Source: Lactobacillus sp. ESL0677
Lineage (GTDB): Bacteria; Bacillota; Bacilli; Lactobacillales; Lactobacillaceae
Direction of reading: 5' to 3'
Length of the DNA stretch: 64,000 nucleotides
Assembly: GCF_029392875.1 (NCBI RefSeq)
Contig: NZ_CP113946.1
Span: 310,001 to 374,000 of the forward strand
Position numbers and translations under genes: made by a program. Below are positions 2,654 through 27,531 of the stretch, piece after piece. The notes under the pieces were generated by a model. That model did no database searches. It worked only from the letters and a program-made list of their open reading frames with translations, and had not been told where the DNA came from. The number at the start of each line of letters is the position of its first letter. Positions within the stretch are counted from its first letter, which is position 1.

Positions 2654-3409
2654 ATGTTAAAAAGCGAAAGATTAAAAACGATTTTACAAGTAATTAATAC
2701 TCAAAAATTTGTTACTGTGGATGAATTGGCTCAAGCACTGACAGTTTCAGATATGACAATTAGACGTGACCTAAATGAATTGGATAAATTAGGTAAAATT
2801 TCTCGAATTCATGGCGGTGCGCAATTAATATCAGATCAAACTAGAAATGAAAAGAGCTACCAGCAAAAGCGGGAAATTCATAGTAAGGAAAAACTTGAGA
2901 TTGCCAAGCGGGCCTGTAATTTGATTCATGAAAATGATTCTATTTATGTTGGTCCGGGCACTACTTTAGAATTAATGGTTGCTAATCTTAAGACTAAACG
3001 TCTGCGAATTGTAACTAATTCGCTACCTGTTTTTGAAGCAGCGCGTAACAATCTTAATGATTATGAGTTAATTATGGTTGGCGGTTCGTACAGAAGAATT
3101 AGTGGTGCCTTTTTAGGTACTCTAGCTAATAACGAACTAAAAACCATGTCATTTTCAGTTGGTTTTGTTGGTGTAAATGGGATTAAAAATACTTCTATGA
3201 CAACAGCTAATTTGGAAGAAGGTCAGACTGAGAGTATAGGACTGGACCGTTCACAAAGTAAATTTGTCGTTGCAGATTATACCAAATTAAATCATAGCGA
3301 CTTTCATCAGTTTTATGATTTACGGAATGTGGATGGGTTAATTACTAACCGCGAAGTAGGATCAGATGTAGAAAAGCATTACAGTCAATTTACAACTGTT
3401 TACAAATAG
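2654..3409 (+). CDS. DeoR-family transcriptional regulator (LacR/GatR-like)
   Basis: This is a 251-residue repressor of the usual DeoR length. Residues 19-42 form the winged HTH ([20 protein letters not shown]), followed by the family signature RIHGGA near 52-57. The C-terminal half is the DeoRC sugar-phosphate sensor, with VGPGTT and TNSLP motifs. It is followed 22 bp later by lacA and lacB, the arrangement of lacR in the tagatose-6-phosphate pathway, so tagatose-6-P or a related sugar phosphate is the likely inducer. Likely targets are its own promoter and the PTS at 15935, which share CAAA-rich repeats. The family call is firm; the effector is inferred. Confidence 0.85.
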
Positions 3410-3431
3410 TTTTACTGAGAGGAGATTAACT

Positions 3432-3860
3432 ATGAAAGTTGTTATTGGTAGCGATAAAGATGGCTTTGAATTAAAAGAAAAGGTAAAGAATTATCTTAAC
3501 AGTCATGATTATGACGTTTTAGATGTAACGCCAGAGCCAGCAGAAGACTTTGTTGAATCAAGTTTGAAGGTTACTCATGAGGTAATGGATAACGGAATTA
3601 AAAAGGCAATTATGTTTGACGAATATGGTGTCGGCTCTGCCATGGCCTCAAATAAGGTTAAAGGTATGGTTACGGCTAATGTCAATGAAGAAAGAACCGC
3701 TCATATGACCGCAATGCATAATGGTGCGAAGGCAATTGCATTAGGCAGCGGCATTGTTGGTGACAAACTTGCATACTCGATTGTACAGCACTATCTTGAT
3801 ACAGAATATGCTGGTGGTCGTCACCAAATTCGTTTGAATATGCTTGAGGAAATGATCTAA
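3432..3860 (+). CDS. lacA: Galactose-6-phosphate isomerase subunit LacA
   Basis: The 142-residue protein belongs to the RpiB/LacA/LacB fold and has the exact length of LacA. It starts [15 protein letters not shown] and, like other LacA chains, lacks the catalytic cysteine of the CGTGIG loop (here [13 protein letters not shown]). LacA pairs with LacB, encoded directly downstream, to convert galactose-6-phosphate to tagatose-6-phosphate in the cytoplasm. The Shine-Dalgarno GAGAGGAG precedes the ATG. The gene lies between the DeoR regulator and lacB with short gaps, so the three are probably one transcript. Confidence 0.85.
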
Positions 3861-3873
3861 GGAGGTTTTGAAA

Positions 3874-4449
3874 ATGTTTGATAATGATAGACCACAACCA
3901 GAATTTGTTGATCCTAAAATTGATAAGCATATGGTAATTGCTTTGGGTAATGACCATATCGTTACCCCAGTAAAAATGGCTATTTCTGACCATTTAAAAG
4001 AAGAAGGCTACCAAGTTATTGATGAAGGTACCCACGATAACACGAGAACGCACTATCCAATGTATGGTAAAAGAGTTGCTGAAGATGTAGCTGATGGCCG
4101 TGCTGATCTTGGTGTCGTTCTTTGTGGTACAGGAATTGGTATTTCAACTGCTGCCAACAAGAACGAAGGCGTTCGTGCAGCGATGGTTGGCGATGTTGCT
4201 CAAGCTGAATATGCTAGACGTGAATTAAACGCTAATATTTTAGGCTTTGGTGGTATTGTATTGGGCCGCGACTTTATTTTTGATATTGTCGATTCATACC
4301 TGAATGCTAAGTACGAACCATCTGATGCTAACAGAAAATTAATTGATAAAATTGATCATATTGCTAAGCCAAATCCAGACCAAAAGGATAATGTTCATTT
4401 CTTTGATGAAGAAAACAAGAAATGGTCCGAAGGCGTATACCACGACTAA
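3874..4449 (+). CDS. lacB: Galactose-6-phosphate isomerase subunit LacB
   Basis: This is an RpiB-fold protein of 191 residues from the ATG at 3874, chosen because AAGGAGG sits 8 bases upstream; an in-frame TTG at 3868 is too close to that site. It carries the catalytic loop [11 protein letters not shown] with Cys84. LacB is normally about 171 residues; here a 20-residue N-terminal extension ([14 protein letters not shown]) precedes the Rossmann start VIALGNDH. With LacA it forms galactose-6-phosphate isomerase. A terminator 40 bp downstream ends the unit. A ribose-5-P isomerase B role is less likely because of the adjacent lacA. Confidence 0.85.
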
Positions 4450-4851: not shown

Positions 4852-5604
4852 ATGGCAACTAAATTATATGGTACCGTGCTTTTAAAAGCACAAAGAATTA
4901 TGAATGTGTTATTGAATACAAGCAATGGGATGACATTAGATGAAATATCAACTAAAGCAGTAATACCTAAACCAACTGTATTTAAAATTTTAAAAACTCT
5001 TGATTATATTGGATTTGTCAGAAAAAATCATGAGGGGAAACGTTATTCTTTGGGTTCAAGAATGATTGGCTATGGTAATAAAGCGTTAAAAAGTTTTGAT
5101 ATTGTTTCAATTAGTGAGCCGTATTTACATGAGTTAAGTAAAGTAACTAACGAAACAATAAATCTTGGTGTTGAAGAAAATAATCATGTTACTTTATTGA
5201 AGAAAATTGATAGTCCACAAACTGTAAACCTTAATTCTCATGTAGGTGGAGCAATGGAATTATATTCATCAGCAATGGGAAAAGCTCTTCTTGCTACTAA
5301 GAGTGATCATGAACTAGATGAATATTTTTCTAAGATTGAATTAAAACCACTAACTAAGCGCACAATTACTAGTATTAGTGAACTTCGTAAGCAAATTTCT
5401 CAGGTTAAAGTAGCTGGTTATGCATTGGATGCTCAAGAAAATCAAGATGATGTAGTTTGTGTCGGGGCTGCTATTCAAAAATATGGCAAAGTTTTTGGTG
5501 CAATTAGTGTTAGTACACCACAATATCGACTAGACGAATTACTACTAGATGATTTAAAAAAGCTTATCATTTCAACTAGGAATCAAATAATAGAAATAAT
5601 TTGA
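4852..5604 (+). CDS. IclR-family transcriptional regulator of the uronate operon
   Basis: At 250 residues this is of standard IclR length. Residues 12-60 form the winged HTH (LDEISTKAVIPKPTVFKIL), then the dimer helix, then the IclR effector domain with SSAMGKALLA and the AGYALDAQE motif. IclR proteins such as KdgR sense 2-keto-3-deoxygluconate or related acids. The gene lies directly upstream of, and parallel to, the glucuronyl hydrolase/PTS/lyase operon, so it is the natural candidate regulator of that operon. The ATG follows GAGAAAGGAAAAG. The effector and whether it represses or activates are inferred. Confidence 0.8.
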   Translation: MATKLYGTVLLKAQRIMNVLLNTSNGMTLDEISTKAVIPKPTVFKILKTLDYIGFVRKNHEGKRYSLGSRMIGYGNKALKSFDIVSISEPYLHELSKVTNETINLGVEENNHVTLLKKIDSPQTVNLNSHVGGAMELYSSAMGKALLATKSDHELDEYFSKIELKPLTKRTITSISELRKQISQVKVAGYALDAQENQDDVVCVGAAIQKYGKVFGAISVSTPQYRLDELLLDDLKKLIISTRNQIIEII

Positions 5605-5615
5605 AAAATCACTTG

Positions 5616-5629
5616 TAAAATCGCTTTCA
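5616..5629 (+). promoter_or_regulatory. cre-like CcpA site before the uronate operon
   Basis: TAAAATCGCTTTCA differs from the palindromic cre TGAAAGCGCTTTCA at two positions. It lies about 50 bp upstream of a TATAAT (5666-5671) that precedes the GH88 gene. CcpA control of the operon is inferred. Confidence 0.5.
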
Positions 5630-5694
5630 TTGAGTTATATTTTATTTGCAAGGATAAAAAAGAAATATAATTTCTTATTTGGAAAGGTAAAAGA

Positions 5695-6870
5695 ATGTAT
5701 GAAGAGATAAAAAAGATGGACTTAAGTAAATCTCCAACTCTTTTAACTAAGCAAGAAATTACTCATGCAATTGAAAATGTATTGCAGCACATCGATATTA
5801 ACATGAATTATTTTGGAGATGATTTTCCAAGACCTAACACAAATAATGGCAAGTATTCCAAGATGGATAATACTGAATGGACTACTGGATTTTGGACAGG
5901 AATACTTTGGCTGGCTTACGAATATACGCATGACTCGAAATATTATAAGCAGGCTATGAGAAACGTTACTTCATTTTCTAATCGTATTAATAAAAAAATT
6001 GCTGTAGATAATCATGATTTAGGATTTATGTATACAACCTCAGTAGTTAGCGATTACAAGATTACAGGTGATGAAGAAGCTAAAAGAATTGGTATAAAGG
6101 CTGCAGATCAATTAACTAAGCGCTATCAAGAAAAAGGAGGATTTATTCAAGCTTGGGGCAAGATGGATGGTAATGATAATTATCGTTTAATTGTTGATTC
6201 ATTAATGAATATACCATTACTTTATTGGGCATCTTCAGTTACAGAAAATCCTAAATATGCTCATATGGCGGATACCCATTATGACCAGGTTTTAAAGACA
6301 ATTGTTAGAGATAACGGTTCGACGTTTCACACTTATTATTTTGATAAAGAAACGGGTAAGCCTTTAAAAGGAGCAACACGTCAAGGATATAGTGATGACT
6401 CAAGTTGGGCAAGAGGTCAGGCATGGGCCGTTTATGGGGTTCCACTTCATTATAAATATCGCCATACTACCAGTGATTTTAAGACTTTTAATGGTGTAAC
6501 TAATTATTTTATTAATCGACTTCCGCAAGACTATGTACCTTACTGGGATTTGATTTTTGGTGATGGTGATGATCAACCCCGTGATTCTTCATCTGGAGTA
6601 ATTGCAATTTGCGGGGTTGCTGAAATGCTTAAATATATGCCTGAAAGTTATCAAAATAAATATCAATACGAACTAATCCTTCATAAGATGTTGAAATCAA
6701 TTATTGATAATTATGCCAATAATAATTTTATTGCTGGTGCTCCTTTATTGGATCATGGTGTTTATTCCTGGCATTCAGGAAAGGGTGTTGATGAAGGAAA
6801 TTTATGGGGAGATTACTTTTATTTTGAATCTCTAATTAGATTTTATAAAGATTGGCAAATTTTTTGGTAG
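5695..6870 (+). CDS. ugl: GH88 unsaturated glucuronyl hydrolase
   Basis: This 391-residue alpha6/alpha6-barrel enzyme lacks a signal peptide. The catalytic pair is visible as Asp108 in NHDLGFM and Asp168 in RLIVDSLMN, matching the two Asp residues of streptococcal UGL; SSWARGQAWAVYG is the family signature. It removes the 4,5-unsaturated uronic acid from disaccharides made by hyaluronate/chondroitin lyases, acting in the cytoplasm on sulfated or unsulfated substrates brought in by the PTS. It is the first gene of an operon also holding a PTS, YajC, a lyase, KduI and KduD, the same gene set as the pneumococcal hyaluronan locus. Confidence 0.9.
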   Translation: MYEEIKKMDLSKSPTLLTKQEITHAIENVLQHIDINMNYFGDDFPRPNTNNGKYSKMDNTEWTTGFWTGILWLAYEYTHDSKYYKQAMRNVTSFSNRINKKIAVDNHDLGFMYTTSVVSDYKITGDEEAKRIGIKAADQLTKRYQEKGGFIQAWGKMDGNDNYRLIVDSLMNIPLLYWASSVTENPKYAHMADTHYDQVLKTIVRDNGSTFHTYYFDKETGKPLKGATRQGYSDDSSWARGQAWAVYGVPLHYKYRHTTSDFKTFNGVTNYFINRLPQDYVPYWDLIFGDGDDQPRDSSSGVIAICGVAEMLKYMPESYQNKYQYELILHKMLKSIIDNYANNNFIAGAPLLDHGVYSWHSGKGVDEGNLWGDYFYFESLIRFYKDWQIFW

Positions 6871-6884
6871 AAAGAGTGAAGAAA

Positions 6885-7397
6885 ATGGCTAATCCAAATA
6901 TTGTTGCTGTAAGGCTGGATGAAAGATTAATTCATGGTCAAGGAAGATTATGGATTTCAAACTTGGGAGCAAACTTAGTCATTGTTGCAAATGATGAAGT
7001 TGCCCAAAGTTCAATTCAACAAACTTTAATGAAGTCGCTATTGCCAAATTCAATTGGTGTTAGATTTTTCACTATTGAAGAAACAATCGACAAAATCTTT
7101 AAAGCTGCTCCTAGACAGAAGATTTTTATTATTGTAAAGACAGCTGAAGATACATTGAAGTTAGCGAAGGGAGGCGTGCCATTCAAAAAATTGAACGTGG
7201 GAAATATCCACTTTAAAGAAGGAAAGACTAAGGTTACCAATTATATCTCAATAGATGAAAATGATATGCAAGCTCTTAAAGAAATGAGGGATGAATACCA
7301 AATTGATTTCAATACTCGGGTAACTCCGATTGGTAATGAGGTCGGTTCAGATTTTAATCTGAATCAGTATGTTGATAATTGGAAGGGAGAAAAATAA
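6885..7397 (+). CDS. PTS mannose-family EIIB (glycosaminoglycan disaccharide type)
   Basis: This is a 170-residue EIIB of the mannose/sorbose/AgaB family. The phosphoryl-accepting His17 lies in RLDERLIHGQ. The ATG at 6885 was chosen because the upstream in-frame TTG at 6852 lies inside the GH88 gene. The stop overlaps the EIIC start (TAATG). The partners EIIC, EIID and EIIA follow at once, so this operon has a complete transporter. By synteny with streptococcal GAG loci the cargo is likely an unsaturated uronate-hexosamine disaccharide. Confidence 0.9.
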   Translation: MANPNIVAVRLDERLIHGQGRLWISNLGANLVIVANDEVAQSSIQQTLMKSLLPNSIGVRFFTIEETIDKIFKAAPRQKIFIIVKTAEDTLKLAKGGVPFKKLNVGNIHFKEGKTKVTNYISIDENDMQALKEMRDEYQIDFNTRVTPIGNEVGSDFNLNQYVDNWKGEK

Positions 7398-8182
7398 TGA
7401 CTTTTACAATTTGGCAAGCCCTGTTAGTTGGTTTATGGGCAGCCTTCTGTTTTGCAGGTCAAGTATGGGGAACTTATACTAACCGTGCTTTATTTATTTC
7501 ATTTGGTGTTGGTCTTATTTTAGGAGATCTAAAGACAGCAGTTATTTTCGGTGCAACAGCTGAATTAGCATTTATGGGATTCGGTGTTGGACCTGGTGGT
7601 TCCACTCCTCCTAACCCATTAGGACCAGGGATTGTTGGTTCGATTTTAGCAATTACAATGCATAAATTGTCACCAGCAGCTGCATTAACTCTATCTTATC
7701 CATTTGCCATGTTAGTTCCATTTATTATTACTTTAATCTTTACGATTAACTCAGGCTCAATGGAATCAGCACGTAAAGCAATTAAAGAAGGAAAGTATCA
7801 TAAGTTTAACTTGATGTCAAATGTTACTTTATGGGAATTCATGCTATTTGCTTTTGTCTTTGGCTTTGCTGCGACTTTAAGTACCTCAGCTTTAAGAGCA
7901 TTTGTTCAAATGATTCCTACTTGGCTAATGAACGGATTAACAGTTGTCGGTGGATTACTTCCAGCAGTTGGTTTTGCACTTATTATGAGTACAATGCTTA
8001 AAAAAGAATATATTCCAGCAGTTGTCTTTGGTTACATCTGTGTAGCTTACTTAAAGATTCCAGTTATTGGTTTAACTTTTGTTGGTATCGCAATTGCTTT
8101 AAACAATTACTACAACAGCAAAAAAAGTTCAGCTGTAAATAGTGATTCAGAAAATGCAGGAGGCGCTGAAGATGGCATCTAG
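7397..8182 (+). CDS. PTS mannose-family EIIC
   Basis: This 261-residue membrane protein has several hydrophobic segments and the EIIC-Man signature FMGFGVGPGGSTPPNPLG. With EIID it forms the channel for the sugar taken up by this operon. The ATG at 7397 overlaps the EIIB stop codon by one base, which implies translational coupling; the upstream in-frame TTG at 7379 is rejected. The hydrophilic C-tail carries Ser/Asp/Glu residues, and its coding end overlaps the start of EIID. Confidence 0.9.
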   Translation: MTFTIWQALLVGLWAAFCFAGQVWGTYTNRALFISFGVGLILGDLKTAVIFGATAELAFMGFGVGPGGSTPPNPLGPGIVGSILAITMHKLSPAAALTLSYPFAMLVPFIITLIFTINSGSMESARKAIKEGKYHKFNLMSNVTLWEFMLFAFVFGFAATLSTSALRAFVQMIPTWLMNGLTVVGGLLPAVGFALIMSTMLKKEYIPAVVFGYICVAYLKIPVIGLTFVGIAIALNNYYNSKKSSAVNSDSENAGGAEDGI

Positions 8183-8987
8183 GAAACCAGTTTTAACTAA
8201 ACGTGATTATTTTATTTCAATTTTAAGATCGTATTATTTACAAAACTCACAAAATTACGGCAACATGCAGGGGACCGGTGTTGCTAAGACAATTTGGCCA
8301 GAATTACGTAAAATTTATAAAGGTGATGAGGCTAAATTTAGAGAAGTAGCTAGTTCTAATGTTGAATTTTACAATACTAACCCACAGCCATATCCTTTCG
8401 TTACCAGTTTAATGCTGGCAATGTATGATAGTGGTCAAAGTGAAGAAGACGTACGAGCAATGAAGATGGCTTTAATGGGACCATTAGCTGGTATTGGTGA
8501 TGCATTGTCACAATTTGCTTTAGCACCATTATTCTCAACAATTTTTGCATCTTTAGCTCTGCAAGGTGTTGTTTATGCGCCAATCATGTTCTTTATTTGT
8601 ATGTTTGGAATTACTTTCGGTGTTAGAAACTTAATGGGCTATCTTGGCTGGAAAGTTGGGACAAGCATTATTGACACATTAAGCGATAGAATGGCTGCTT
8701 TAGCTGATATTGCTAGTACTGTTGGTTTGACTGTTATTTCTGGTTTATCGGTTTCCTTCGTTAAGGTCAACTTAGGCTTAAAATACTCAGCTCAAATTAA
8801 AGGTAAGACTCAGTTAGTTACTGTTCAAGCATTTTTGGACAAGATTATGCCATATATGTTGCCACTTTTGTTAATTTTCTTTGTTTATTGGTTAATTACT
8901 AAGAAAAAGTGGACAGCTTATAAGATTATTTTGTTGTTATTAGTTGTTGGTGTTGCACTTTCAGCTATGGGTATCTTGGTTCCTTAG
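8172..8987 (+). CDS. PTS mannose-family EIID
   Basis: At 271 residues this is a typical EIID, with the conserved start RDYFISILRSYYLQNSQNYG, the central motif MGPLAGIGDALSQ and C-terminal membrane helices. The start at 8172 follows GCAGGAGG with 8 bases spacing and overlaps the EIIC end by 11 bp. EIID and EIIC together make the membrane translocator. Confidence 0.9.
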   Translation: MASRKPVLTKRDYFISILRSYYLQNSQNYGNMQGTGVAKTIWPELRKIYKGDEAKFREVASSNVEFYNTNPQPYPFVTSLMLAMYDSGQSEEDVRAMKMALMGPLAGIGDALSQFALAPLFSTIFASLALQGVVYAPIMFFICMFGITFGVRNLMGYLGWKVGTSIIDTLSDRMAALADIASTVGLTVISGLSVSFVKVNLGLKYSAQIKGKTQLVTVQAFLDKIMPYMLPLLLIFFVYWLITKKKWTAYKIILLLLVVGVALSAMGILVP

Positions 8988-9002
8988 TCTTGAGGTAGTT
9001 TT

Positions 9003-9431
9003 ATGAAATATGATATTTGCATTATTGGTCATGGAGATTTTCCAATGGGAATTGACTCCGATATTAAAACAGTAGCTGGTACAGATGAACTAGTTACATG
9101 TTTAAATCTAGACGAGCACACAACACATGAAAAATTTACACAAGATCTTGATCAGTATTTAGATACACACGAAAATGTTATTGTTTTTGCTGACATGACT
9201 GGTGGCGCTCCATACCAAATAGCAGCTAAGCGCATTTTGACTAATCCTAAAGACACTAATAAGTATGTCTTATCTGGTGTATCAATGAATCTAGTGCTTG
9301 ATGTTTACTTAAAAAATTTGTCTGGACAATTAACTGCGGAAAACATAGAGGATTCATTAAGTCATGTAATTGAAGAATCTAAATCAATGATGCAGTCAAT
9401 TTCACAATCTACTATTTCTAAGAAGGCGTAG
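9003..9431 (+). CDS. PTS mannose-family EIIA
   Basis: The 142-residue cytoplasmic phosphocarrier has the EIIA-Man fold. His10 in IIGHGDFPMG accepts phosphate from HPr, and the FADMTGGAPYQIA loop is characteristic. It completes the four-component transporter of the uronate operon and is placed after EIID. TTGAGGTAG precedes the ATG. Confidence 0.88.
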   Translation: MKYDICIIGHGDFPMGIDSDIKTVAGTDELVTCLNLDEHTTHEKFTQDLDQYLDTHENVIVFADMTGGAPYQIAAKRILTNPKDTNKYVLSGVSMNLVLDVYLKNLSGQLTAENIEDSLSHVIEESKSMMQSISQSTISKKA

Positions 9432-9434
9432 TAA

Positions 9435-9731
9435 GTGAACTGGGTCAATATTTTATTAATTATTCTAGTCGTAGTTTTATTAATTCTTTATTTAGTAATT
9501 TTACCAATAGCTCGTCGTAAAAGTATGACTAGAAATCAGCAAGCAATGAGCGATTTCTTTAAATCGCTTCATGAAAATGAAAAAGTTGTATTGCTGAATG
9601 GCGTAGTTGGTACGATTAAAAGTGTTAGCCAGCATTATGTTAACTTAGAAATTGCTCAAAATGTTATTGTCAAAGTTGATAAACATGGTATTGCTTCTGA
9701 GCTGAATCAAGGAGAGAAAGCAGATGAATGA
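9435..9731 (+). CDS. YajC-like small membrane protein in the PTS operon
   Basis: The 98-residue protein has one N-terminal transmembrane helix (LLIILVVVLLILYLVILPI) followed by the YajC-type soluble domain with GVVGTIKSVSQHYVNLEI. It starts with GTG preceded by AAGAAGG. YajC is known as a Sec accessory subunit, but a YajC paralogue sits at the same place in streptococcal hyaluronan operons. Here it lies between EIIA and the heparinase-like lyase and overlaps the lyase start by 8 bp. The role in sugar uptake is unknown; a link to membrane assembly or secretion of the co-encoded proteins is speculation. Confidence 0.8.
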   Translation: MNWVNILLIILVVVLLILYLVILPIARRKSMTRNQQAMSDFFKSLHENEKVVLLNGVVGTIKSVSQHYVNLEIAQNVIVKVDKHGIASELNQGEKADE

Positions 9732-11607
9732 ACTTACTCAGTTAAAAGTTAAGAAATTAATTGATCAGGATGAAATTTCATATGCAGCTGACTACTTAGC
9801 TAATTCTAAGTTACTTCTTAATAATAAATTCTCATTTCATCACGTTTATGACATGGAGCCAAGTCCTACTACATATTATATGGATAACTGGACTGTTTCC
9901 CCTAATGGAGACCCTGAATGGTTGTATGTGTTAAAACGTCAAGAATATTTGCAAGATCTTTTGTACTCCTATATAAAAACTAATAATCCCACCTATTTGG
10001 AAAAGATAAAAGCATTTATTTTTGATTGGATAACTAATAATGATGAAAATGAAGAACAACGTTATGTAACTTGGCGCACTATTGATACAGGAATTAGGTT
10101 ACTTAATTGGACTAAGCCATTAAGTTATTTACTTCAAAAGCAATTATTAAATGATGACGAAATTACAAGAATTAACCAATCTGTTAAACGTCAAGCCATG
10201 TATTTACATGACAATTACATTGAAAAATATGATTTAAGTAATTGGGGTGTTTTGATTACAACAGGAATTCTGACTTTTGCAGCAGAACATCCTAAAGTTA
10301 TTGATAGTAGTTTAGTTAATTGGGCTGAGAGTAAGTTAAGCTTAGAACTGAAATTGCAGGTCGACTCTACAGGCTTACATTGGGAACAATCACCATTATA
10401 TTTTATTGAAGTGTTTAGAAGTTCTCTTTGTGTAGTTGCAAGTTATTTGGCTCACAATAAACAATTACCAACCATAATTGAAAGTTCTTTAAAAGCAATG
10501 CTTAAGACTTGTTACTATCAAATCAAACCAGATGGTTATATTTTGCAGCAAGGTGACACTGATGCAATTAAAATTGCAGATTTAATTACTTCGGCTAAAT
10601 ACATTTTATTTGGTATAAAAGAGCCTAAAGTTAAGCAAGACTTCTTGTTGATGAGTTTAGCTAATCAAGCTCAAATATTGGTTAATGTTCAAGAAAAGCA
10701 AAATAACTGTTATTTTGATTCTTTAGTTTCAGGTAATTTTTATCATAAAGATTTAGTTAATCAAAATTATTGGCATATTTATAACGGCAATTTAGGTAGT
10801 GGTCATGGTCATGCAGCATCTGGGCACCTTGACTTAACAATTAATAACGATAATTTGTTAATTGATCCAGGTCGATATACATATGTAAATTCGCCTGAAA
10901 GGCGAAATTTGAAATCTGGATTTTCGCATAATGTAGTATTAGTTGATAATGATTTTCCTACACGACCGCGAGATTCTTGGAAATATCAAACAATTGTTGC
11001 TAATCAACGTAATGAAGTGGAACATTATGATTTATATGATTTAGTTAAAACTAGTTATTATGATAAATCTAATGATTGTACAGTTACAAGATACTTTATT
11101 TGGCTTAAAGAAGTAACAATTATGACTATTATTGACGTAGTTGAATGTAAGGGTAAGCATCTTCAATCAGATAATTGGATTTTTGCACCAGAGATTACTT
11201 GTCAACCAGAGTTTAATAATAGTTACTTGATAACTAATGGCATTAATCAATATGAACTTTTCCATTCTTTAAAGAATGGTCAGCTAGAAAAGCAAATGTA
11301 TTCTCCACGCTATAATGAATTAGAATCAACTACTAAATTAACTTTGTTGAATCAGTTTACGGATAATAATCTTGCTTATACGGTAATTGGCAAAAAATCT
11401 GATATCGCAGATGTTCATTATTGTGAGTCTAAACGAATTAATGAAGTTATTGATGATGATATTCATAGTTTTGGAGTAGAAATTGACTTAAGTAATAATC
11501 GTCGAATAGTTATAAATATTCAACATGAAAATACAATCATAGGAAATAAATTGTATTTTGTTGGCGGTATTCCTTGTTATGGTAATGTTTCTGTAAATTA
11601 TGAATAG
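9724..11607 (+). CDS. Heparinase II/III-family oligosaccharide lyase
   Basis: The 627-residue protein has an alpha/alpha toroid N-terminal half (residues 1-310; WRTIDTGIRLLNW, HWEQSPLYF) and a beta-sandwich C-terminal half with the signature GHGHAASGHLDLTI, then LLIDPGRYTY and FSHNVVLVD. There is no signal peptide, so it should act in the cytoplasm on uronate-containing oligosaccharides. Streptococcal homologues in hyaluronan loci have the same position after yajC. Catalysis by beta-elimination would feed the GH88 hydrolase or give unsaturated uronate directly. The ATG overlaps the yajC end and follows GGAGAG. Exact substrate (hyaluronan, chondroitin or heparosan oligomers) is open. Confidence 0.85.
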   Translation: MNELTQLKVKKLIDQDEISYAADYLANSKLLLNNKFSFHHVYDMEPSPTTYYMDNWTVSPNGDPEWLYVLKRQEYLQDLLYSYIKTNNPTYLEKIKAFIFDWITNNDENEEQRYVTWRTIDTGIRLLNWTKPLSYLLQKQLLNDDEITRINQSVKRQAMYLHDNYIEKYDLSNWGVLITTGILTFAAEHPKVIDSSLVNWAESKLSLELKLQVDSTGLHWEQSPLYFIEVFRSSLCVVASYLAHNKQLPTIIESSLKAMLKTCYYQIKPDGYILQQGDTDAIKIADLITSAKYILFGIKEPKVKQDFLLMSLANQAQILVNVQEKQNNCYFDSLVSGNFYHKDLVNQNYWHIYNGNLGSGHGHAASGHLDLTINNDNLLIDPGRYTYVNSPERRNLKSGFSHNVVLVDNDFPTRPRDSWKYQTIVANQRNEVEHYDLYDLVKTSYYDKSNDCTVTRYFIWLKEVTIMTIIDVVECKGKHLQSDNWIFAPEITCQPEFNNSYLITNGINQYELFHSLKNGQLEKQMYSPRYNELESTTKLTLLNQFTDNNLAYTVIGKKSDIADVHYCESKRINEVIDDDIHSFGVEIDLSNNRRIVINIQHENTIIGNKLYFVGGIPCYGNVSVNYE

Positions 11608-11618
11608 TAGGTGATTTT

Positions 11619-13211
11619 ATGATAAATATAAAAACATCGTACAGTCGATTTATAGCTAGTATACTTGCAGTAATTATGTTAGTAATATTTTTCAATATTA
11701 ATTCAATTACTGCTAAAGCAGCAAACTACTATGTTGATTCAAAAACCGGGTCAGATACTAACTCTGGATTATCAGTAACTTCGCCATGGAAATCTTTTAA
11801 AAACATTAATTCCAAAACTTTCCAACCTGGAGATGAAATTCTTTTAAAGAGTGGTTCAGTTTGGAATGAACAGTTAATGCCTCAGGGCAATGGAAATCAA
11901 ACTGAGCCGATTACTATTAGCAAATATGGCGGTGAACTAAAGCCGAGAATTAATGGTAATGGTACTCATAATTATAAAAGAAATTCAGGAACAGTTATGC
12001 TAGTTAATCAGCATGATTGGATAATTAAAAATCTTGAAGTAACAAATTATAGTTCAACGATTCAATCGCAACGTTCAGGCATTTTGATAATTAATAATAG
12101 TAATACAACACAAAATAATATTACTGTTGCAGATAACTATGTACATGATGTTAATTCTGATACGCAGGAACACGGTGCTTGGAAGGTTACTGGTGGCATA
12201 ATTTTAATCGGAATTAATGAAGATTTAGATGGCAAAATAAATTCTAATAAGAATTTTGGCTTTGATAATGTTTTGGTTAAAAATAATCATGTTGACAATG
12301 TATCGATTGCCGGAATTAGAAATAAATCTACATTATTAAATACTAACGGTTCAGAGTCATATCCTAAGAATAATAAGAACATTACCTATGAAAATAACGA
12401 TGTTGAAAATGTTTATGGTGATGGCATGATTATTTCTGAAGTTTCAGATAATGGAATTGTTAAAAATAATAAAGTTAATAAATTTTGCAATACTGAATCA
12501 AGATTCAATTATGCTGGCTTGTGGGTAATGGCTTCAGACAATACTACAGTTGAAAATAATGAAGTTTCTAATGGCTTGTATGGCAATAATGATGGTACAG
12601 CATTTGATATTGATTTAAGTTGTAATAATGTTGTTGTTCAACATAATTATTCTCATGATAATGCACGAGGCAGTGTATTATTTATGAATGCATCACATAA
12701 TGGTATTTTCAGATACAATGTTTGTATTAATGATGGATGGAATCCTAATAGTAAGATGATATCTTACTTACCAAGTACTACGACTGAAAAGGCATATGTC
12801 TATAATAATCTGTTTATTGCCAGCCCAACTACAGCTAATTTAATTAAGTGTAGTGGAAATCGTCGTTATTTAGATTTTACAAATAATCTAGTTATTTCAC
12901 AAAATCCAAATATGGTAACTTTCAATCAAGGAACAATGACAGGTGAATTGAACTTTAAGAATAATGCGGTTTATGGCTTTAATAGTCAGTGGTTTGGAAA
13001 AGATAATATTAGTTTAAAAGATGAAGATACTGTTAAACAGCTTATTGCAGATAATGCAAAAGTCTCGGGCATAGCTAACTTAAACCTTAAATCTCTCGCT
13101 AATTTACCAGAACTGAAAAAAGCAGGTATTTTTGAAGGAACGGGTTTAACAGATTTTAATGATCAACCAGTGGCTAATATCCCATCGATTGGACCAGTAG
13201 AGTTGAAATAA
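11619..13211 (+). CDS. Secreted right-handed parallel beta-helix protein, candidate extracellular polysaccharide lyase
   Basis: The 530-residue protein has a signal peptide (basic start, hydrophobic core at residues 11-28, likely cleavage after TAKA near 34). The mature start YYVDSKTGSDTNSG and PWKSFKNIN is typical of PL-like beta-helix proteins. Many Asn-rich coils follow (NVLVKNNHVDNVS, ITYENNDVENVYGDGM, TTVENNEVSNGLYGN). No LPXTG, SLAP or membrane anchor is visible, so it is probably released. In the same operon as the heparinase-like lyase and GH88, it occupies the role that PL8 hyaluronate lyase has in streptococci. A lyase or hydrolase activity is inferred; it could also be a sulfated-glycan epimerase or binding protein. 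Confidence 0.75.
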   Translation: MINIKTSYSRFIASILAVIMLVIFFNINSITAKAANYYVDSKTGSDTNSGLSVTSPWKSFKNINSKTFQPGDEILLKSGSVWNEQLMPQGNGNQTEPITISKYGGELKPRINGNGTHNYKRNSGTVMLVNQHDWIIKNLEVTNYSSTIQSQRSGILIINNSNTTQNNITVADNYVHDVNSDTQEHGAWKVTGGIILIGINEDLDGKINSNKNFGFDNVLVKNNHVDNVSIAGIRNKSTLLNTNGSESYPKNNKNITYENNDVENVYGDGMIISEVSDNGIVKNNKVNKFCNTESRFNYAGLWVMASDNTTVENNEVSNGLYGNNDGTAFDIDLSCNNVVVQHNYSHDNARGSVLFMNASHNGIFRYNVCINDGWNPNSKMISYLPSTTTEKAYVYNNLFIASPTTANLIKCSGNRRYLDFTNNLVISQNPNMVTFNQGTMTGELNFKNNAVYGFNSQWFGKDNISLKDEDTVKQLIADNAKVSGIANLNLKSLANLPELKKAGIFEGTGLTDFNDQPVANIPSIGPVELK

Positions 13212-13227
13212 AAGGAAGTTTTAAAAA

Positions 13228-14067
13228 ATGAAAATGAATATGAATTATGCACACAGTCCTGAAGATGTTAAACATTATTCAACTGATGAATTAAGAAGTC
13301 AATTTTTAGTACCTAAGGTTTTTGAACCTGGCAAAATTAATTTGACTTATACATACAACGATCGAATGATTCTTGGTGGTGTAATGCCAACTGATAAATC
13401 ATTGGAAATCGTTTTGAGTAAGGAATTGGGTGTTGATTTCTTCTTGCAACGTCGCGAATTAGGCGTAATTAATTTAGGAGGTGATGGTACTATCGAGATA
13501 GATGGTGATAAAGAAGCAATGACTAAGCATGATGGTTATTATGTAGGTCAAGGTCATAAGCACGTTGTCTTTAGTTCTAATGATCCTAAAGATCCTGCTA
13601 AGTACTATGTTGTTTCAACACCAGCACAAAAATCGTACCCAGATAAGAAATTATTGTTCAAAGATGCCTTAGCTAAAGAGCTGGGTGATCAAGAACATAT
13701 GAATAAGAGAACTATTTACAAGTATATTGATGCTTCACAAATGGACACCTGTCAATTACAAATGGGCTACACTGTTTTGGAACCAGGTTCTGGCTGGAAC
13801 ACGATGCCTGCACATACTCATGCTCGTAGAATGGAAGCATATCTTTACTGTGAATTTGCAGAACCAGATACAAGAGTATTTCACTTTGTTGGTAAACCAA
13901 GTGAAACTAAAGACATTGTAATGAAGAATGAACAAGCAGTAATTAATCCAAGTTGGTCAATTCACTGCGGTATCGGTACTACAAGTTATTCATTTATTTG
14001 GGCAATGTGTGGTGAAAACCAAACCTATGATGATATGGATTGGATTTCAATGGATGAGCTTAATTAA
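13228..14067 (+). CDS. kduI: 4-deoxy-L-threo-5-hexosulose-uronate ketol-isomerase
   Basis: The 279-residue cupin is of exact KduI length. Metal ligands are visible in MPAHTHARRMEAYLY (two His and Glu) and the later His of SIHCGIGT. It isomerises the open-chain unsaturated uronate released by GH88 or the lyase to 3-deoxy-D-glycero-2,5-hexodiulosonate. KduD, which reduces that product, is encoded 27 bp downstream. Lactobacilli may use DhuI for GAG sugars, but the sequence motifs are KduI. The ATG follows AAAGGAAG. Confidence 0.92.
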   Translation: MKMNMNYAHSPEDVKHYSTDELRSQFLVPKVFEPGKINLTYTYNDRMILGGVMPTDKSLEIVLSKELGVDFFLQRRELGVINLGGDGTIEIDGDKEAMTKHDGYYVGQGHKHVVFSSNDPKDPAKYYVVSTPAQKSYPDKKLLFKDALAKELGDQEHMNKRTIYKYIDASQMDTCQLQMGYTVLEPGSGWNTMPAHTHARRMEAYLYCEFAEPDTRVFHFVGKPSETKDIVMKNEQAVINPSWSIHCGIGTTSYSFIWAMCGENQTYDDMDWISMDELN

Positions 14068-14094
14068 GCTGTATATTAACGGAGGTTTTTAAAG

Positions 14095-14910
14095 ATGGAA
14101 CAATCTAAAGAAGAAATCAAAAAGAATGAAGAAGCATTAGACAAGTTTAAGATGAGTCTTTATGACTTAACAGGTAAAGTTGCTATTATCACGGGTGGTA
14201 ATACAGGTTTAGGCCAAGGATATGCGGTTGCATTGGCTGAAGCTGGTGCTGATATCTTTATCCCAACATTTGGGACTTTAGAATGGGATAATACTCGTGC
14301 AATGATTGAAAAACGCGGTCGTAAGGTTGAGTTTATGGATGTTGATTTAACTAAGCCTGGTGTTCCACAAGAGGTAGTTGAAAAAGCAATTGAAACTTTT
14401 GGTCATATTGACATTTTAATTAACAATGCTGGAATGATTAGAAGAAATCCATTATTGGAATCAAAAGATGAAGATTGGGACAAAGTTATTAATATTAACT
14501 TGAATGCTGTTTATCACATGTCAATGGCTGCAGCTAAAGTAATGGCTAAGCAAAAGTCAGGTAAGATTATCAATATTGGTTCTATGCTTTCATTCCAAGG
14601 TGGTAAGTTTATTCCTTCATACACAGCTTCAAAGCATGGTGTTGCTGGACTTACCAAATCGTTTGCTAGTGAAATGGGCGCATATAATGTCCAAGTTAAT
14701 GCAATTGCACCTGGATATATTAAAACTGCAAATACTGCTCCGATTCGTGCTGATAAAGCTCGTAATCAAGAAATTTTGGACAGAATTCCTGCAGGTCACT
14801 GGGCAGAACCTTCTGAATTAATGGGAGTTGCAGTATTCTTAGCTAGTGCTGCTGCTAACTATGTCAATGGTGTTATCTTCCCAGTAGATGGTGGTTACTT
14901 AGTAAGATAG
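14095..14910 (+). CDS. kduD: 2-dehydro-3-deoxy-D-gluconate 5-dehydrogenase (KduD-type SDR)
   Basis: The 271-residue short-chain dehydrogenase has the dinucleotide motif TGGNTGLGQG, the NNAG strand and the active-site pair YTASK with upstream serine in NIGSMLS. It follows kduI, so it should reduce the 2,5-diketo intermediate to 2-keto-3-deoxygluconate with NAD(P)H. The N-terminus is about 20 residues longer than usual (KEEIKKNEEALDKFKMSLYD). ACGGAGG precedes the start. It is the last gene before a terminator; KdgK and KdgA, needed to finish the pathway, are not in the window. Confidence 0.88.
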   Translation: MEQSKEEIKKNEEALDKFKMSLYDLTGKVAIITGGNTGLGQGYAVALAEAGADIFIPTFGTLEWDNTRAMIEKRGRKVEFMDVDLTKPGVPQEVVEKAIETFGHIDILINNAGMIRRNPLLESKDEDWDKVININLNAVYHMSMAAAKVMAKQKSGKIINIGSMLSFQGGKFIPSYTASKHGVAGLTKSFASEMGAYNVQVNAIAPGYIKTANTAPIRADKARNQEILDRIPAGHWAEPSELMGVAVFLASAAANYVNGVIFPVDGGYLVR

Positions 14911-14917
14911 TATAAAG

Positions 14918-14945
14918 AAAAAGCGGCAGAAATGTCGCTTTTTTT
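14918..14945 (+). terminator. Terminator after kduD
   Basis: AAAAGCGGC pairs with GTCGCTTTT (one G-U pair) around a 6-base loop, then a T run. It closes the uronate operon; the next gene may depend on read-through. Confidence 0.75.
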
Positions 14946-14973
14946 ATTGTTTAAATTATTAAAGGGTAAAAAA

Positions 14974-15771
14974 TTGAAAATAAAAATAAGCTTAAAGGAT
15001 ACTTTTGATAAGACTATTACAGGAGTTAGTGACGATGATCTTTGTGTTTTGCCGTTTAAAAAAAGATTTCAAGATGGTGATTATTATGAAGTAAATGTCG
15101 AGCACGCTCCCGTGTACTTGATGGTACAGTTAGATGCTGTACTTAATCCAACACTAATATATTTGGCAAAACCCAATTGGCGATATAAAATTCCGATGAA
15201 TTTAGAACGCTACTCGGCTTTACCAGACGGGGCGTTTACTGGAGAACATCACTATGCTTGCGTTCGAAAAGCAGAAGATTATGAAATAAATGCTTATCAA
15301 AATTTAGCTCGTAATAGCCACGATCAAAGACAAGAATCGGGCGCATATCCGCATATTTCAGCTAATGCAGAAACTAGGGGAGAAGAACCTTTTTTAGTAA
15401 AAAATGTAATAGACGGTTATTTAGCCAATAAAGGTCATGGCAGATTTCCGTTTCAATCTTGGGGTATTGATGCAAGAGATGACGCAAAATTAAAATTAGA
15501 CTTTGGTCGCCTAGTGAATATTGCAAAAATTGGTATTCAGTTAAGAGCAGATTATCCGCACGACAGTTATTGGACTAAAGCTACTATTAAGTTTTCGAAT
15601 AACAATAAGCAAATTGTTGATTTAGTAAAAACAGCAAAAATTCAATATTTTGTAGTTAACCAAGAAAATGTAAGTTTCTTAAGCATTAATAATCTAATCA
15701 GAGATTCTCAAGGTGATCCTGATTCATTCCCGTCGTTAAGTCAGTTAATTGTGTTAGGTAAGAATAAATAA
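14974..15771 (+). CDS. Uncharacterised cytoplasmic beta-sandwich (F5/8 type C-like) protein of the uronate locus
   Basis: The predicted product has 265 residues from the TTG at 14974, which follows AAAGGGT by 6 bases. An earlier in-frame ATG at 14932 lies inside the kduD terminator hairpin and is rejected. No signal peptide or membrane segment is seen. The second half (VIDGYLANKGHG, FPFQSWGID, LKLDFGRLVNIAKIGIQLR, then KATIKFSNN) looks like a discoidin/F5-8C carbohydrate-binding fold. The first half (KRFQDGDYYEVNVEHAP) is another beta-rich region. It is the last gene of the GAG locus, so a role with uronate oligosaccharides is possible, but no function is recognised. Confidence 0.65.
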   Translation: MKIKISLKDTFDKTITGVSDDDLCVLPFKKRFQDGDYYEVNVEHAPVYLMVQLDAVLNPTLIYLAKPNWRYKIPMNLERYSALPDGAFTGEHHYACVRKAEDYEINAYQNLARNSHDQRQESGAYPHISANAETRGEEPFLVKNVIDGYLANKGHGRFPFQSWGIDARDDAKLKLDFGRLVNIAKIGIQLRADYPHDSYWTKATIKFSNNNKQIVDLVKTAKIQYFVVNQENVSFLSINNLIRDSQGDPDSFPSLSQLIVLGKNK

Positions 15772-23176: not shown

Positions 23177-23197
23177 GCTGCAAAGGAGGCGTTGCCA

Positions 23198-23914
23198 ATG
23201 CAAAAACCATTATATCGGCAAGTTATTTCAGATTTAGAAAAAAGAATTGGCCAACTAAAGCCAAATGATAAGTTACCCAGTGAGCGGCAGTTGTTAATGC
23301 AGTATTCTGTTAGTCGCAATACGATTAGATTAGCGCTGCAGGACTTAGAAGAACGGGGCTTAATCTATCGATTGCATGGCAAAGGCACTTTTGTGTCAAG
23401 CATGTACCTTAATCAAACTAATATCGGCGGGATGTATTCTTTCTCAGAGGAAGTCAAACGCGCGGGGCAAAAAGCAACTACCAAAAATTACAGCTTAGAA
23501 TTGGTAGTACCTAGTAAGCAAATTGCTGAGCAATTGAACTTAAATGAGGGTGAGCAAACCTATAAGTTAGTCCGTATTCGCTTAGCCAATGATGAGCCGC
23601 AAATTTTAAGTACAACATATTTACCAGAACCACTTTTTCCAGATCTTAAGCTTAGTGACTTACAGGTTGACCCTCTCTATAGTGTGTTAAAAAACAAGTA
23701 TCACCAACTTAGTGTGATGGCTTTTGAAGATGTTCAGGCTGTGAGTTTGACTGCTGTTGAATGTAAATTCTTGGCAGAAAAAGTTGGCGCTCCTAGTTTA
23801 AAAATTTATCGTAAGACGATTAATGAAAAAAATATTCCTGTTGAATTCACAATCTCGTTAGCTCGCGGGGACAGGTTTATTTATCGTTCAAGACAGTACA
23901 ATCATTTAATTTGA
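23198..23914 (+). CDS. GntR-family (HutC subfamily) regulator of the agaS-PTS cluster
   Basis: The 238-residue protein has a GntR winged HTH at residues 5-70 (LPSERQLLMQYSVSRNTIRL, LIYRLHGKGTFV) and a UTRA ligand domain. The ATG at 23198 has AAAGGAGGC at good spacing; the in-frame TTG at 23192 is too close. It sits before agaS and the mannose-type PTS, as GnbR or AgaR do. Amino-sugar phosphates are the likely effectors. It probably binds TGGT...ACCA-like sites at 23165 and 25254. Confidence 0.85.
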   Translation: MQKPLYRQVISDLEKRIGQLKPNDKLPSERQLLMQYSVSRNTIRLALQDLEERGLIYRLHGKGTFVSSMYLNQTNIGGMYSFSEEVKRAGQKATTKNYSLELVVPSKQIAEQLNLNEGEQTYKLVRIRLANDEPQILSTTYLPEPLFPDLKLSDLQVDPLYSVLKNKYHQLSVMAFEDVQAVSLTAVECKFLAEKVGAPSLKIYRKTINEKNIPVEFTISLARGDRFIYRSRQYNHLI

Positions 23915-23941
23915 TTTTGGTGAAAGGTAGGAATTAACAAT

Positions 23942-25111
23942 ATGTTTTCAAAAACAGATGAGGAATTAGAGCAACTTAGTGCGCGCATTACGACCCGTGA
24001 AATAGAGCAACAACCACAATTGTGGCAAGAGACTTGGTCAATTTATCAAGATAAAAAGGCAGAAATTCAAGCTTTTTTGGATAAGATCAATCAAAAATGG
24101 GGCAAAGTACGGGTAATCTTTACTGGGGCCGGGACGAGTGCCTATGTTGGCAATACTATCATGCCGTATCTGCAGCGACATGGCGATCGGACTAAGTATA
24201 ATTTTGAATCAATTGACACTACTAAAATTGTTTCCACACCTAAAGATTATCTTGAAGCAGAAACGCCGACTATTTTGGTTTCCTTTGCACGCAGCGGTGA
24301 TTCGCCGGAGTCAGTGGCAACAGTTGAATTAGCTAAAAAAATCGTGAAGCACTTATACCAAATTGCCATCACTTGTGCTCCAGAAGGGCAATTAGCTAAA
24401 GACTTAAAGGGCGATACAGCAGGGTTAGTTGTATTAACGCCAGCTAAATCCCTAGATCAAGGCTTTGCGATGACTGGTTCATTTTCATGTATGAGCTTAA
24501 CGGCGCTACTGATTTTTGATACGCTAGATGAGCAGCGTAAAGAAAAGATCATTGGTGAAATTGCTCAAATGGGGAAGAGTGTGATTGCGCGTGAGCCAGA
24601 AATTCAATCATTGGTCGATACTGATTTTAACCGGATTACATACATTGGCAGTGGTAGTTTAGGTGGCTTGGCTGAAGAAACGCGGCTAAAGATTTTGGAA
24701 TTAACTGCTGGTGAGGTAGCAGCCTTATTTGACACATCAATGGGGTTGCGTCATGGTCCTAAGTCGTTTTTAGACGGCAAGACAATTGTTTTTGATTATG
24801 TTTCTAATAATTCATATACTAGACAATATGATCTGGATATTTTAACCGAGATTAAAGGCGACGACATTGTGCCGTTGGTTATGGCAGTTGGTCAAGAAAA
24901 GGACGGACAAAATTTTGCGGGTAAATCCTTTACTTTTGAAGCTGATGAGTTATTGCCCGATGCTTATCTAGCACTGCCCGATGTCATGTTTGGTCAGACG
25001 ATTGCGTTATTAACTTCGATTAAAGTTAACAATAAGCCGGACACGCCATCTCCGACGGGGACAGTTAACCGAGTAGTTAAGGGTGTAACTATTCATAAAT
25101 TTATTGGATAA
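23942..25111 (+). CDS. agaS: AgaS-type SIS-domain sugar-phosphate isomerase/deaminase
   Basis: The 389-residue protein has two SIS domains (FTGAGTSAYVGNTIMPYLQR, SFARSGDSPESVATVELAK; then YIGSGSLGGLAEETRLK and the catalytic MGLRHGPKSF). AgaS converts galactosamine-6-phosphate to tagatose-6-phosphate with loss of ammonia, or acts on related amino sugars. It lies between its GntR regulator and a complete mannose-family PTS and ends in a strong terminator. NagA, required for N-acetylated substrates, is not present in the window. Confidence 0.88.
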   Translation: MFSKTDEELEQLSARITTREIEQQPQLWQETWSIYQDKKAEIQAFLDKINQKWGKVRVIFTGAGTSAYVGNTIMPYLQRHGDRTKYNFESIDTTKIVSTPKDYLEAETPTILVSFARSGDSPESVATVELAKKIVKHLYQIAITCAPEGQLAKDLKGDTAGLVVLTPAKSLDQGFAMTGSFSCMSLTALLIFDTLDEQRKEKIIGEIAQMGKSVIAREPEIQSLVDTDFNRITYIGSGSLGGLAEETRLKILELTAGEVAALFDTSMGLRHGPKSFLDGKTIVFDYVSNNSYTRQYDLDILTEIKGDDIVPLVMAVGQEKDGQNFAGKSFTFEADELLPDAYLALPDVMFGQTIALLTSIKVNNKPDTPSPTGTVNRVVKGVTIHKFIG

Positions 25112-25130
25112 TAATTAATATTTTAATTTG

Positions 25131-25168
25131 AATGAAGGCCTTGTTTTATAATGAGCCTTCATTTTTTT
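25131..25168 (+). terminator. Terminator after agaS
   Basis: AATGAAGGC pairs with GCCTTCATT across a 15-base loop and is followed by T7. Confidence 0.8.
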
Positions 25169-25185
25169 ATTTTAAAAACTTATTA

Positions 25186-25267
25186 TTGACAAAAAGTGGT
25201 TGGTACCTTATTATATTACTTGAAAGCGCTTTATAAATATTTTTGTGTATTGATGGTATCGGTTCCA
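25186..25267 (+). promoter_or_regulatory. Promoter, cre site and GntR-like operator before the aga-type PTS
   Basis: TTGACA (25186-25191), 17 bp, TATTAT (25209-25214). The cre TGAAAGCGCTTTAT (25221-25234) lies just after the expected start of transcription. TGGTATCGGTTCCA (25254-25267) is an imperfect version of the palindrome at 23165, so the same GntR protein may act here. Confidence 0.7.
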
Positions 25268-25303
25268 GTTTATGAAACTTAACTATCCATAGGAGGAAGA
25301 TAT

Positions 25304-25792: not shown

Positions 25793-25803
25793 GAGGAAGA
25801 AAA

Positions 25804-27508: not shown

Positions 27509-27531
27509 TTTAAATAATTAGAAAGTATATT

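Follow-up and report, generated by a model that had tools for sequence, protein, structure and literature searches.

A probable GH136-type hydrolase encoded in a glycosaminoglycan operon of Lactobacillus sp. ESL0677

Introduction

Which secreted enzyme could start the degradation of glycosaminoglycans (GAG) in a Lactobacillus that has a GAG operon and no recognizable PL8 hyaluronidase? The question is raised by an operon of Lactobacillus sp. ESL0677 located in the DNA stretch analyzed here, the 64,000 nucleotides at positions 310001-374000 of its one-contig 2.03 Mb genome (G000), which we call the window. The operon consists of genes for an IclR-family regulator, a GH88 hydrolase, a phosphotransferase system (PTS), a YajC-like protein, a PL12-like lyase, a beta-helix protein, KduI, KduD, and a CBM32-like protein. 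The initial annotation of this DNA had proposed that the beta-helix protein of 530 amino acids (aa), encoded at 11619-13211 on the + strand, may start depolymerization in place of a PL8 enzyme and could represent an unassigned group of lyases. Our analysis retains it as a candidate for the first depolymerizing cut, not as a lyase but, very probably, as a GH136-type hydrolase with D325 and D332 as its predicted catalytic residues. The cluster type is already known, and within it we place a putative GH136-type hydrolase with changed subsites.

Family assignment of the beta-helix protein

The beta-helix gene is separated by 11 bases from the lyase gene before it and by 16 bases from kduI after it, and with such short spacers a single transcript is likely. 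Its product starts with a Sec-type signal sequence ending in AKAA. Signal sequences were judged by eye, without a signal-peptide predictor; no other product of the operon appears to carry one, membrane proteins (PTS IIC/IID and YajC) aside, which agrees with the earlier description of the beta-helix protein as the only secreted one.

The beta-helix profile matches the lacto-N-biosidase LnbX (PDB 5gqc) at 1e-105, covering positions 28-515 of the 547 in the profile, and the single sequence matches it at 8.6e-23. The fold is a right-handed beta-helix with the topology of LnbX, and the likeness in fold spans 474 residues. The NCBIfam LnbX equivalog model is also matched (2.9e-16), yet at 58.6 bits against a cut-off of 2500. 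LnbX uses a retaining mechanism and has a pocket-shaped active site, according to the available part of its description (PMC8106489). In ErLnb136, as reported in the accessible text of PMC7335108, D568 is the acid/base, D575 is the nucleophile, and W548 stacks on galactose (Gal). By the alignment and the entry numbering, these three residues correspond to D325, D332, and M304 of the window protein. D325 is conserved in all 65 aligned rows and D332 in 63 of them, the other two having Glu; one weak partial row (L111) of an enlarged alignment lacks the Asp pair. The Gal-stacking Trp is not found in the window protein, M304 occupying that column. The alignment (A2) omits P0045 and P0047, and the table of residue columns omits P0011, P0045, and P0047, as well as Str_G538 and G632 for their length.

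Subsite residues and phylogeny

Positions 189, 234-236, 273, and 304 differ between subgroups of the 65 aligned rows. Three lacto-N-biosidases have Met189, Ala234, Val235, Gly236, Thr271, Met273, and Trp304. The eight window-type rows have Lys189, Arg234, Asn235, Lys236, Ser273, and Met304, and four rows of the g12 and g25 groups share Lys189, Arg234, Asn235, Ser273, and Met304 with them. Judged from the alignment, the replacement of Met and Ala by K189 and R234 would suit an acidic sugar, possibly by contacts to its carboxylate.

The window-type proteins and those of g12, which we take to be Lacticaseibacillus because P0050 carries the name L. zeae, fall into one 32-row clade (100/99) and form separate supported subclades within it; this tree additionally omits P0041, P0042, P0044, P0046, and P0048. 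A single clade of the window-type and g12-type operon genes was rejected by the approximately unbiased (AU) test at p 0.011, with the tested clade defined after the tree had been seen. The lacto-N-biosidases form a separate clade together with a protein of G594 (100/99), a genome of the same order. The G594 protein is a clear lacto-N-biosidase relative (TnX match 4.8e-167). It has nearly the full lacto-N-biosidase residue set, except for Leu in place of Val235 and Ala in place of Gly236, and is encoded in a GH136I/GH136II-type gene pair (C1, L103:8143-14487).

Other members of the family are more diverse. GH136-like beta-helix proteins are numerous in the genomes around G363 (family f9, which is probably Paenibacillus-like), and some of them contain CBM96; their subsite residues vary, and the Asp pair is constant in the checked rows bar one weak partial row. 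P0010 is matched in 119 of 216 genomes around G363, in some solely via its C-terminal CBM96 part. ESL0677 itself has a second GH136-like beta-helix paralogue with 30% identity (C1:1948643-1950136; L065:9547-11331, - strand), which adjoins genes for GH115, a transporter of the major facilitator superfamily (MFS), UxaC, and GH28, that is, another uronate locus. In G340 (L062), open reading frames (ORFs) of similar size adjoin its own beta-helix gene.

Co-occurrence with the lyase gene and with PL8

Of 75 genomes of the genus, G000, G055, G025, and G065 encode a close full-length lyase, and these four are also the ones with the operon-type beta-helix. The lyase of G015 and G035 is about 30% identical and belongs to a similar operon that lacks the beta-helix gene. 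G008 has a distant beta-helix and no lyase, in G053 the lyase is reduced to a broken remnant, and the remaining lyase matches in the genus are marginal and partial. The reduced operon of G053 (C1, L105:10696-15891) comprises genes for IclR, GH88, KduI, KduD, and the CBM32-like protein besides the lyase remnant, which is interrupted by three stops; PTS, YajC, and beta-helix genes were not seen at this locus. In the family (301 genomes, the two genome draws being taken as the same 301), a clear lyase is present in 11 genomes, a clear beta-helix in nine, and both in six (Fisher test, 3.8e-08, with related genomes treated as independent); these counts exclude the marginal matches in G007 (lyase, 7.2e-4) and G166 (beta-helix, 9.2e-4).

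The GH88, PTS, KduI, KduD, and PL12-like genes are also grouped in L026, L027, and L033, with kduI and kduD preceding the rest of the cluster in L027. In G122, G202, and G351, the lyase gene is followed by a gene for a lipoprotein of 331-339 aa and then by a gene for a beta-helix protein of 757-760 aa. These g12-type beta-helix proteins end in an LPXTG-like motif (LPKTG or LPQTG, and LPQAG in G351).

No PL8 was found in the ESL0677 genome: PF08124 gives no matches in it, and the same search is over the cut-off in four of 15 related genomes. PF02278 likewise has no matches in the genome, a result not informative alone since no positive control gave a match. A strict replacement of PL8 by the beta-helix protein is rejected, as G122, G351, and G326 have both and G294 and G295 have neither. 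A PL8 domain is encoded about 13 kb (G122) and 16 kb (G351) from the lyase gene. In G326, the beta-helix protein has an LPXTG-type end and its gene lies between GH84 and PL8 genes, all within 12 kb (C1, L058:3760-15281), a possible GAG depolymerase cluster. The GAG locus of G297 (C1; L028, L063) is apparently decaying: GH88 is split over two frames, a transposase-like ORF lies in the EIIA region, and a short PL8 frame has a similar ORF close by; no beta-helix match was found in that genome.

Accessory gene upstream of the beta-helix gene

The lipoprotein encoded upstream of the g12-type beta-helix genes has no Pfam match; the UniRef name on P0050 starts with 'Peptidylprolyl isomerase'. Its homologues (phmmer, seven-sequence set) include the products of genes that immediately precede a beta-helix gene in G234, G363, and G594, and accessory members of G472, G672, and G1288 also link in. 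A ten-protein accessory profile matches HP_0175 at 4.9e-07, a chaperone-type isomerase that, in the accessible text of PMC7335108, is the structure nearest to the GH136I domain of ErLnb136. On these grounds, the accessory and beta-helix genes look like a GH136I plus GH136II pair. ErLnb136 itself (6kqs) is not among the PDB matches of the ten-row profile at E 1, searches with single accessory sequences gave no match, and AlphaFold2 models of two of them (mean confidence, pLDDT, 43) were not used. The accessory gene is present in G122, G202, G234, and G351; no GH136I-type partner was found in G000, G025, G055, and G065 at E 0.1 with a four-row g12 accessory profile, which is narrow.

Proposed pathway and alternative explanations

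We propose that a polymer of glucuronic acid (GlcA) and N-acetylhexosamine (HexNAc) is shortened before import by a secreted retaining hydrolase of GH136 type, which GAG operons seem to have acquired on two occasions. Taken as a whole, the proposal seems to us about evenly poised between right and wrong. Computation supports it by fold, homology, the conserved catalytic pair, operon linkage, and two sets of beta-helix genes, not forming a single clade, near the lyase gene; we infer hydrolytic activity, the substrate, the bond cut, and the order of steps. A GAG substrate is less certain than the GH136-type hydrolase, and the exact bond is less certain still.

Lacto-N-biosidase cleaves after Gal-beta-1,3-GlcNAc (GlcNAc, N-acetylglucosamine), and chondroitin and hyaluronan consist of GlcA-beta-1,3-HexNAc units linked beta-1,4. 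By correspondence with D568 and D575 of ErLnb136, D325 would act as the general acid/base and D332 as the nucleophile in a retaining reaction. GlcA-beta-1,3-HexNAc would be placed in the site where lacto-N-biosidases hold Gal-beta-1,3-GlcNAc, and the extracellular cut would occur at the HexNAc-beta-1,4-GlcA bond, most likely in a chondroitin- or hyaluronan-type chain. The PTS would then take up and phosphorylate short products, from which inside the cell the PL12-like enzyme would make, and GH88 would split, unsaturated disaccharides. The uronate would pass through KduI and KduD, an aldolase whose gene lies elsewhere in the genome, and a kinase for which no gene was located in the window, and AgaS and LacD would process the amino sugar. 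An endo cut would yield even-numbered saturated chains, and a tetrasaccharide is the shortest chain from which the lyase could produce the unsaturated disaccharide taken by GH88. Since the streptococcal PTS is known, from the available part of PMC6837340, for a disaccharide, either the PTS would take longer chains or the products would be cut again.

Several points weigh against this proposal. Its weakest step is that of PTS and product length. A hydrolase leaves saturated ends, so that some disaccharide would escape GH88 unless there is a further glycosidase, and if it released disaccharides only, no substrate would remain for the lyase. The lyase is, moreover, PL12-like. HexNAc in heparin is alpha-linked, a misfit for an enzyme cleaving beta-HexNAc bonds, and HepC of L. 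rhamnosus seems to be active on heparin, according to a meeting abstract quoted in the accessible text of PMC6045597. The pair Lys189 and Arg234 is found, too, in rows lacking any known GAG context (P0007-P0019 and others) and so is by itself no mark of a GAG enzyme. The operon is present without the beta-helix gene in G294 and G295. A GAG neighbourhood is not family-wide: relatives of GH88, the PL12-like lyase, KduI, and PL8 were found in none of 13 loci (about 20 kb each) of other Bacillota by blastp with the operon proteins, PL8, GH84, and enzymes for 2-keto-3-deoxygluconate (KDG), the matches there being limited to one general short-chain dehydrogenase and the beta-helix and accessory genes. 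Likewise, relatives of GAG genes were not found around the distant members of the family in G008, G131, G247, and G340 or around the ESL0677 paralogue. In comparison VIA, ErLnb136 (28.9, 369 residues) ranks below the AlgE rows. The limits given above for the Fisher and AU tests count on the same side.

The strongest competitor, unlikely but to be reckoned with, is a GH136-type hydrolase whose substrate is heparan sulfate or heparosan, cleaved for example in the manner of an endo-beta-glucuronidase, or else a different uronate polymer, for instance a microbial capsule or plant glucuronan. The PL12-like character of the lyase, the heparin degradation by L. rhamnosus described in the available part of PMC6045597, and the second ESL0677 paralogue beside GH115, UxaC, and GH28 would fit it, whereas genes of the AgaS family and of a galactosamine-type PTS lie close by, GH84 and PL8 genes flank the beta-helix gene of G326, and known GH136 enzymes cleave a beta-HexNAc bond. 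Less probable is that the protein is a lacto-N-biosidase or galacto-N-biosidase acting on host or milk-type disaccharides and that its operon position is incidental. Such a role shares with our proposal the GH136 homology and the catalytic pair, and the available text on L. paracasei olive strains (PMC13101490) discusses their GH136 as lacto-N-biosidase; but the window protein has M304 instead of the Gal-stacking Trp, lacks the Met189/Ala234/Thr271/Met273 set, belongs to a separate supported clade, and is encoded in an operon of uronate genes; moreover, two sets of beta-helix genes of its kind are found near the lyase gene. Equally improbable is a new group of polysaccharide lyases; we dropped this reading because profile and structure searches give far stronger and longer matches to GH136 and both catalytic Asp of that family are retained. 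A beta-helix adhesin or binding protein without catalytic function is harder still to reconcile with an enzymatic Asp pair kept throughout a divergent family, and we regard it as very improbable.

Returning to the GAG hydrolase, we tentatively suggest a new GH136 subgroup of retaining endo-beta-N-acetylhexosaminidases acting on hyaluronan- or chondroitin-type GAGs, with GlcA replacing Gal in subsite -2; GAG operons of lactobacilli would have acquired it at least two times, and in the lineage of the window protein it would be able to work without the GH136I chaperone. We think this suggestion somewhat less likely than not. The compared literature, as far as its accessible text goes, associates GH136 with lacto-N-biosidase-type activity as a milk-oligosaccharide trait, and PMC13101490, in its available part, extends this milk-sugar reading to Lacticaseibacillus. 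The retrieved parts of the literature on GH136 with hyaluronan or chondroitin give no GAG role to GH136. If the members encoded in GAG operons cut GAGs, the milk-oligosaccharide label is misleading for those proteins, and hydrolysis as the opening step would account for the start of GAG use in lactobacilli whose PL12-like enzyme has no signal sequence.

The nearest named relatives of the beta-helix protein are from Lactobacillus sp. ESL0679 (97% identity) and W8174 (61%), which we take to be bee isolates, and the source strain is probably a bee symbiont. To our knowledge, insects lack hyaluronan. The proposal bears on whether gut symbionts use the chondroitin or heparan sulfate of their host, presumably bees, as food; the literature joining bees, Lactobacillus, and GAG offers nothing on point in its titles and abstract openings, and the strain names ESL0679 and W8174 occur in none of the papers searched.

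Other genes of the operon and its neighbourhood

The remaining operon genes named in the initial annotation were confirmed by Pfam and NCBIfam matches; the whole operon is on the + strand, with spacing of -41 to +90 bases from the IclR gene to the last one. The IclR-family, KdgR-like regulator (4852-5604) matches Pfam IclR_C at 3.5e-46 and the KdgR model at 5e-45, under its cut-off. GH88 unsaturated glucuronyl hydrolase (UGL), lacking a signal sequence (5695-6870; Pfam GH88, 1.2e-24), has streptococcal UGL 2zzr as its nearest solved structure (8.2e-157 across 378 residues). The PTS of the mannose/sorbose family comprises EIIB (6888-7397; PF03830, 4.8e-42), for which ATG 6888 was adopted instead of the listed TTG 6852, EIIC (7379-8182; PF03609, 5.6e-62), listed from TTG 7379 with an ATG further on at 7397, EIID (8142-8987; PF03613, 1.7e-74), and EIIA (9003-9431; PF03610, 2.1e-09). 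They are followed by the YajC-like membrane protein (9435-9731; PF02699, 2.9e-12; TIGR00739, 45.7 bits versus a cut-off of 44.2).

The PL12-like heparinase II/III family lyase (9724-11607) matches the N- and C-terminal Pfam Hepar_II_III models at 6.8e-22 and 1.2e-16, and a profile built from 15 relatives matches heparinase III 4mmh at 4.1e-26. N173, Y226, H361, and H363 are invariant across these 15 relatives and are presumably of the residue kinds catalytic in PL12. No signal sequence is visible by eye in the lyase, and a crude hydrophobicity scan flagged an N-terminal signal in none of the relatives scanned. KduI, the 5-dehydro-4-deoxy-D-glucuronate isomerase (13228-14067; NF002091, 1.4e-120), and KduD, the 2-dehydro-3-deoxy-D-gluconate 5-dehydrogenase (14095-14910; NF005390, 2.7e-138), are both over the NCBIfam cut-offs. 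The last gene (14932-15771), added by our analysis, encodes an F5/8-type-C (CBM32-like) protein (Pfam F5_F8_type_C, 2.5e-04, under the cut-off) without a signal sequence, and a cytoplasmic location is odd for a carbohydrate-binding fold. It accompanies GAG operons both with and without the beta-helix gene, having homologues in stretches L026-L029, L033, L055-L057, L105, L107, and L108; none were seen in L032 and L034.

The initial annotation went too far in calling the locus complete: with two kdgK and two kdgA relatives as tblastn queries, no KDG kinase or aldolase was found within the window, where the kinase was sought. One gene of the 2-keto-3-deoxy-6-phosphogluconate (KDPG) aldolase family lies outside it, at C1:1973443-1974015, and in Lactobacillus sp. 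W8174 the KDG kinase and aldolase genes both flank the operon.

Upstream of the operon are genes for a DeoR regulator, LacA, and LacB (2654-4449, + strand; LacA 217.3 and LacB 278.6 bits, over the cut-offs), in identical order in W8174. Downstream, at 23192-27933 (+ strand), lie genes for GntR, an AgaS-family isomerase/deaminase (agaS_fam, 3.8e-125), and a galactosamine-type PTS (IIB, IIC, IID, and IIA), the matches to the agaS_fam and galactosamine-type PTS models all being below the cut-offs, and at 30315-31310 (+ strand) LacD, the tagatose-1,6-bisphosphate aldolase (NF009065, 1.2e-146, over the cut-off). The AgaS and galactosamine-type PTS block adjoins the operon in G065 and lies downstream of it in W8174; since these genes accompany the operon in the window and in two relatives, they point to N-acetylgalactosamine and hence to chondroitin. 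A 673-aa protein encoded at 28008-30029 (- strand), a candidate extra glycosidase, adjoins the galactosamine-type PTS genes both here and in G065. It has no NCBIfam, Pfam, or PDB match and has 307 relatives at E 1e-3; among the 120 matches listed, the named ones are in Lactobacillus (L. kullabergensis, L. kimbladii, and L. xylocopicola), and the UniRef names of some relatives say GH38 or GH42 N-terminal.

Comparison with known systems

GAG clusters of this type have been reported in L. casei, L. paracasei, and L. rhamnosus (Kawai 2018, PMC6045597), and in the available part of that report KduI and KduD are crucial to GAG metabolism. The Lacticaseibacillus cluster has GH88, the PTS, the PL12-like HepC, KduI, and KduD in common with the window. 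The model in the same text ranks HepC with cell-surface or extracellular lyases; with no N-terminal signal flagged in the lyase relatives, the first cut is left unexplained, and the accessible part of that account makes no mention of the beta-helix gene. The Lacticaseibacillus-type beta-helix relatives have 757-760 aa and an LPXTG-like end and are encoded after a chaperone-like lipoprotein gene, whereas the window protein has 530 aa and neither feature. In L. paracasei strains from olives, the available part of PMC13101490 gives PL12, GH88, GH136, and CBM32 by dbCAN in two strains and all of them missing in a third, and this joint presence or absence fits the same cluster.

The streptococcal hyaluronan cluster (HysA, PTS, UGL) resembles the window operon in its GH88 enzyme, which is like streptococcal UGL, and in PTS import. 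It differs in that no PL8 was found in the ESL0677 genome and KduI and KduD replace DhuI and DhuD. The GH136 lacto-N-biosidases (LnbX 5gqc, ErLnb136 6kqs, TnX 7v6m, and BsaX 7v6i) share with the window protein the beta-helix, the catalytic Asp pair, and core positions. In contrast to them, the window protein has the Gal-stacking Trp and the equivalents of Met189, Ala234, Thr271, and Met273 replaced, is encoded in a GAG operon, and has no GH136I partner detected with the narrow profile. Finally, PL6 chondroitinase B and alginate lyases have the beta-helix fold and some N-terminal sequence similarity in common with it, but these matches are partial and much weaker, and the window protein has the catalytic pair of GH136.

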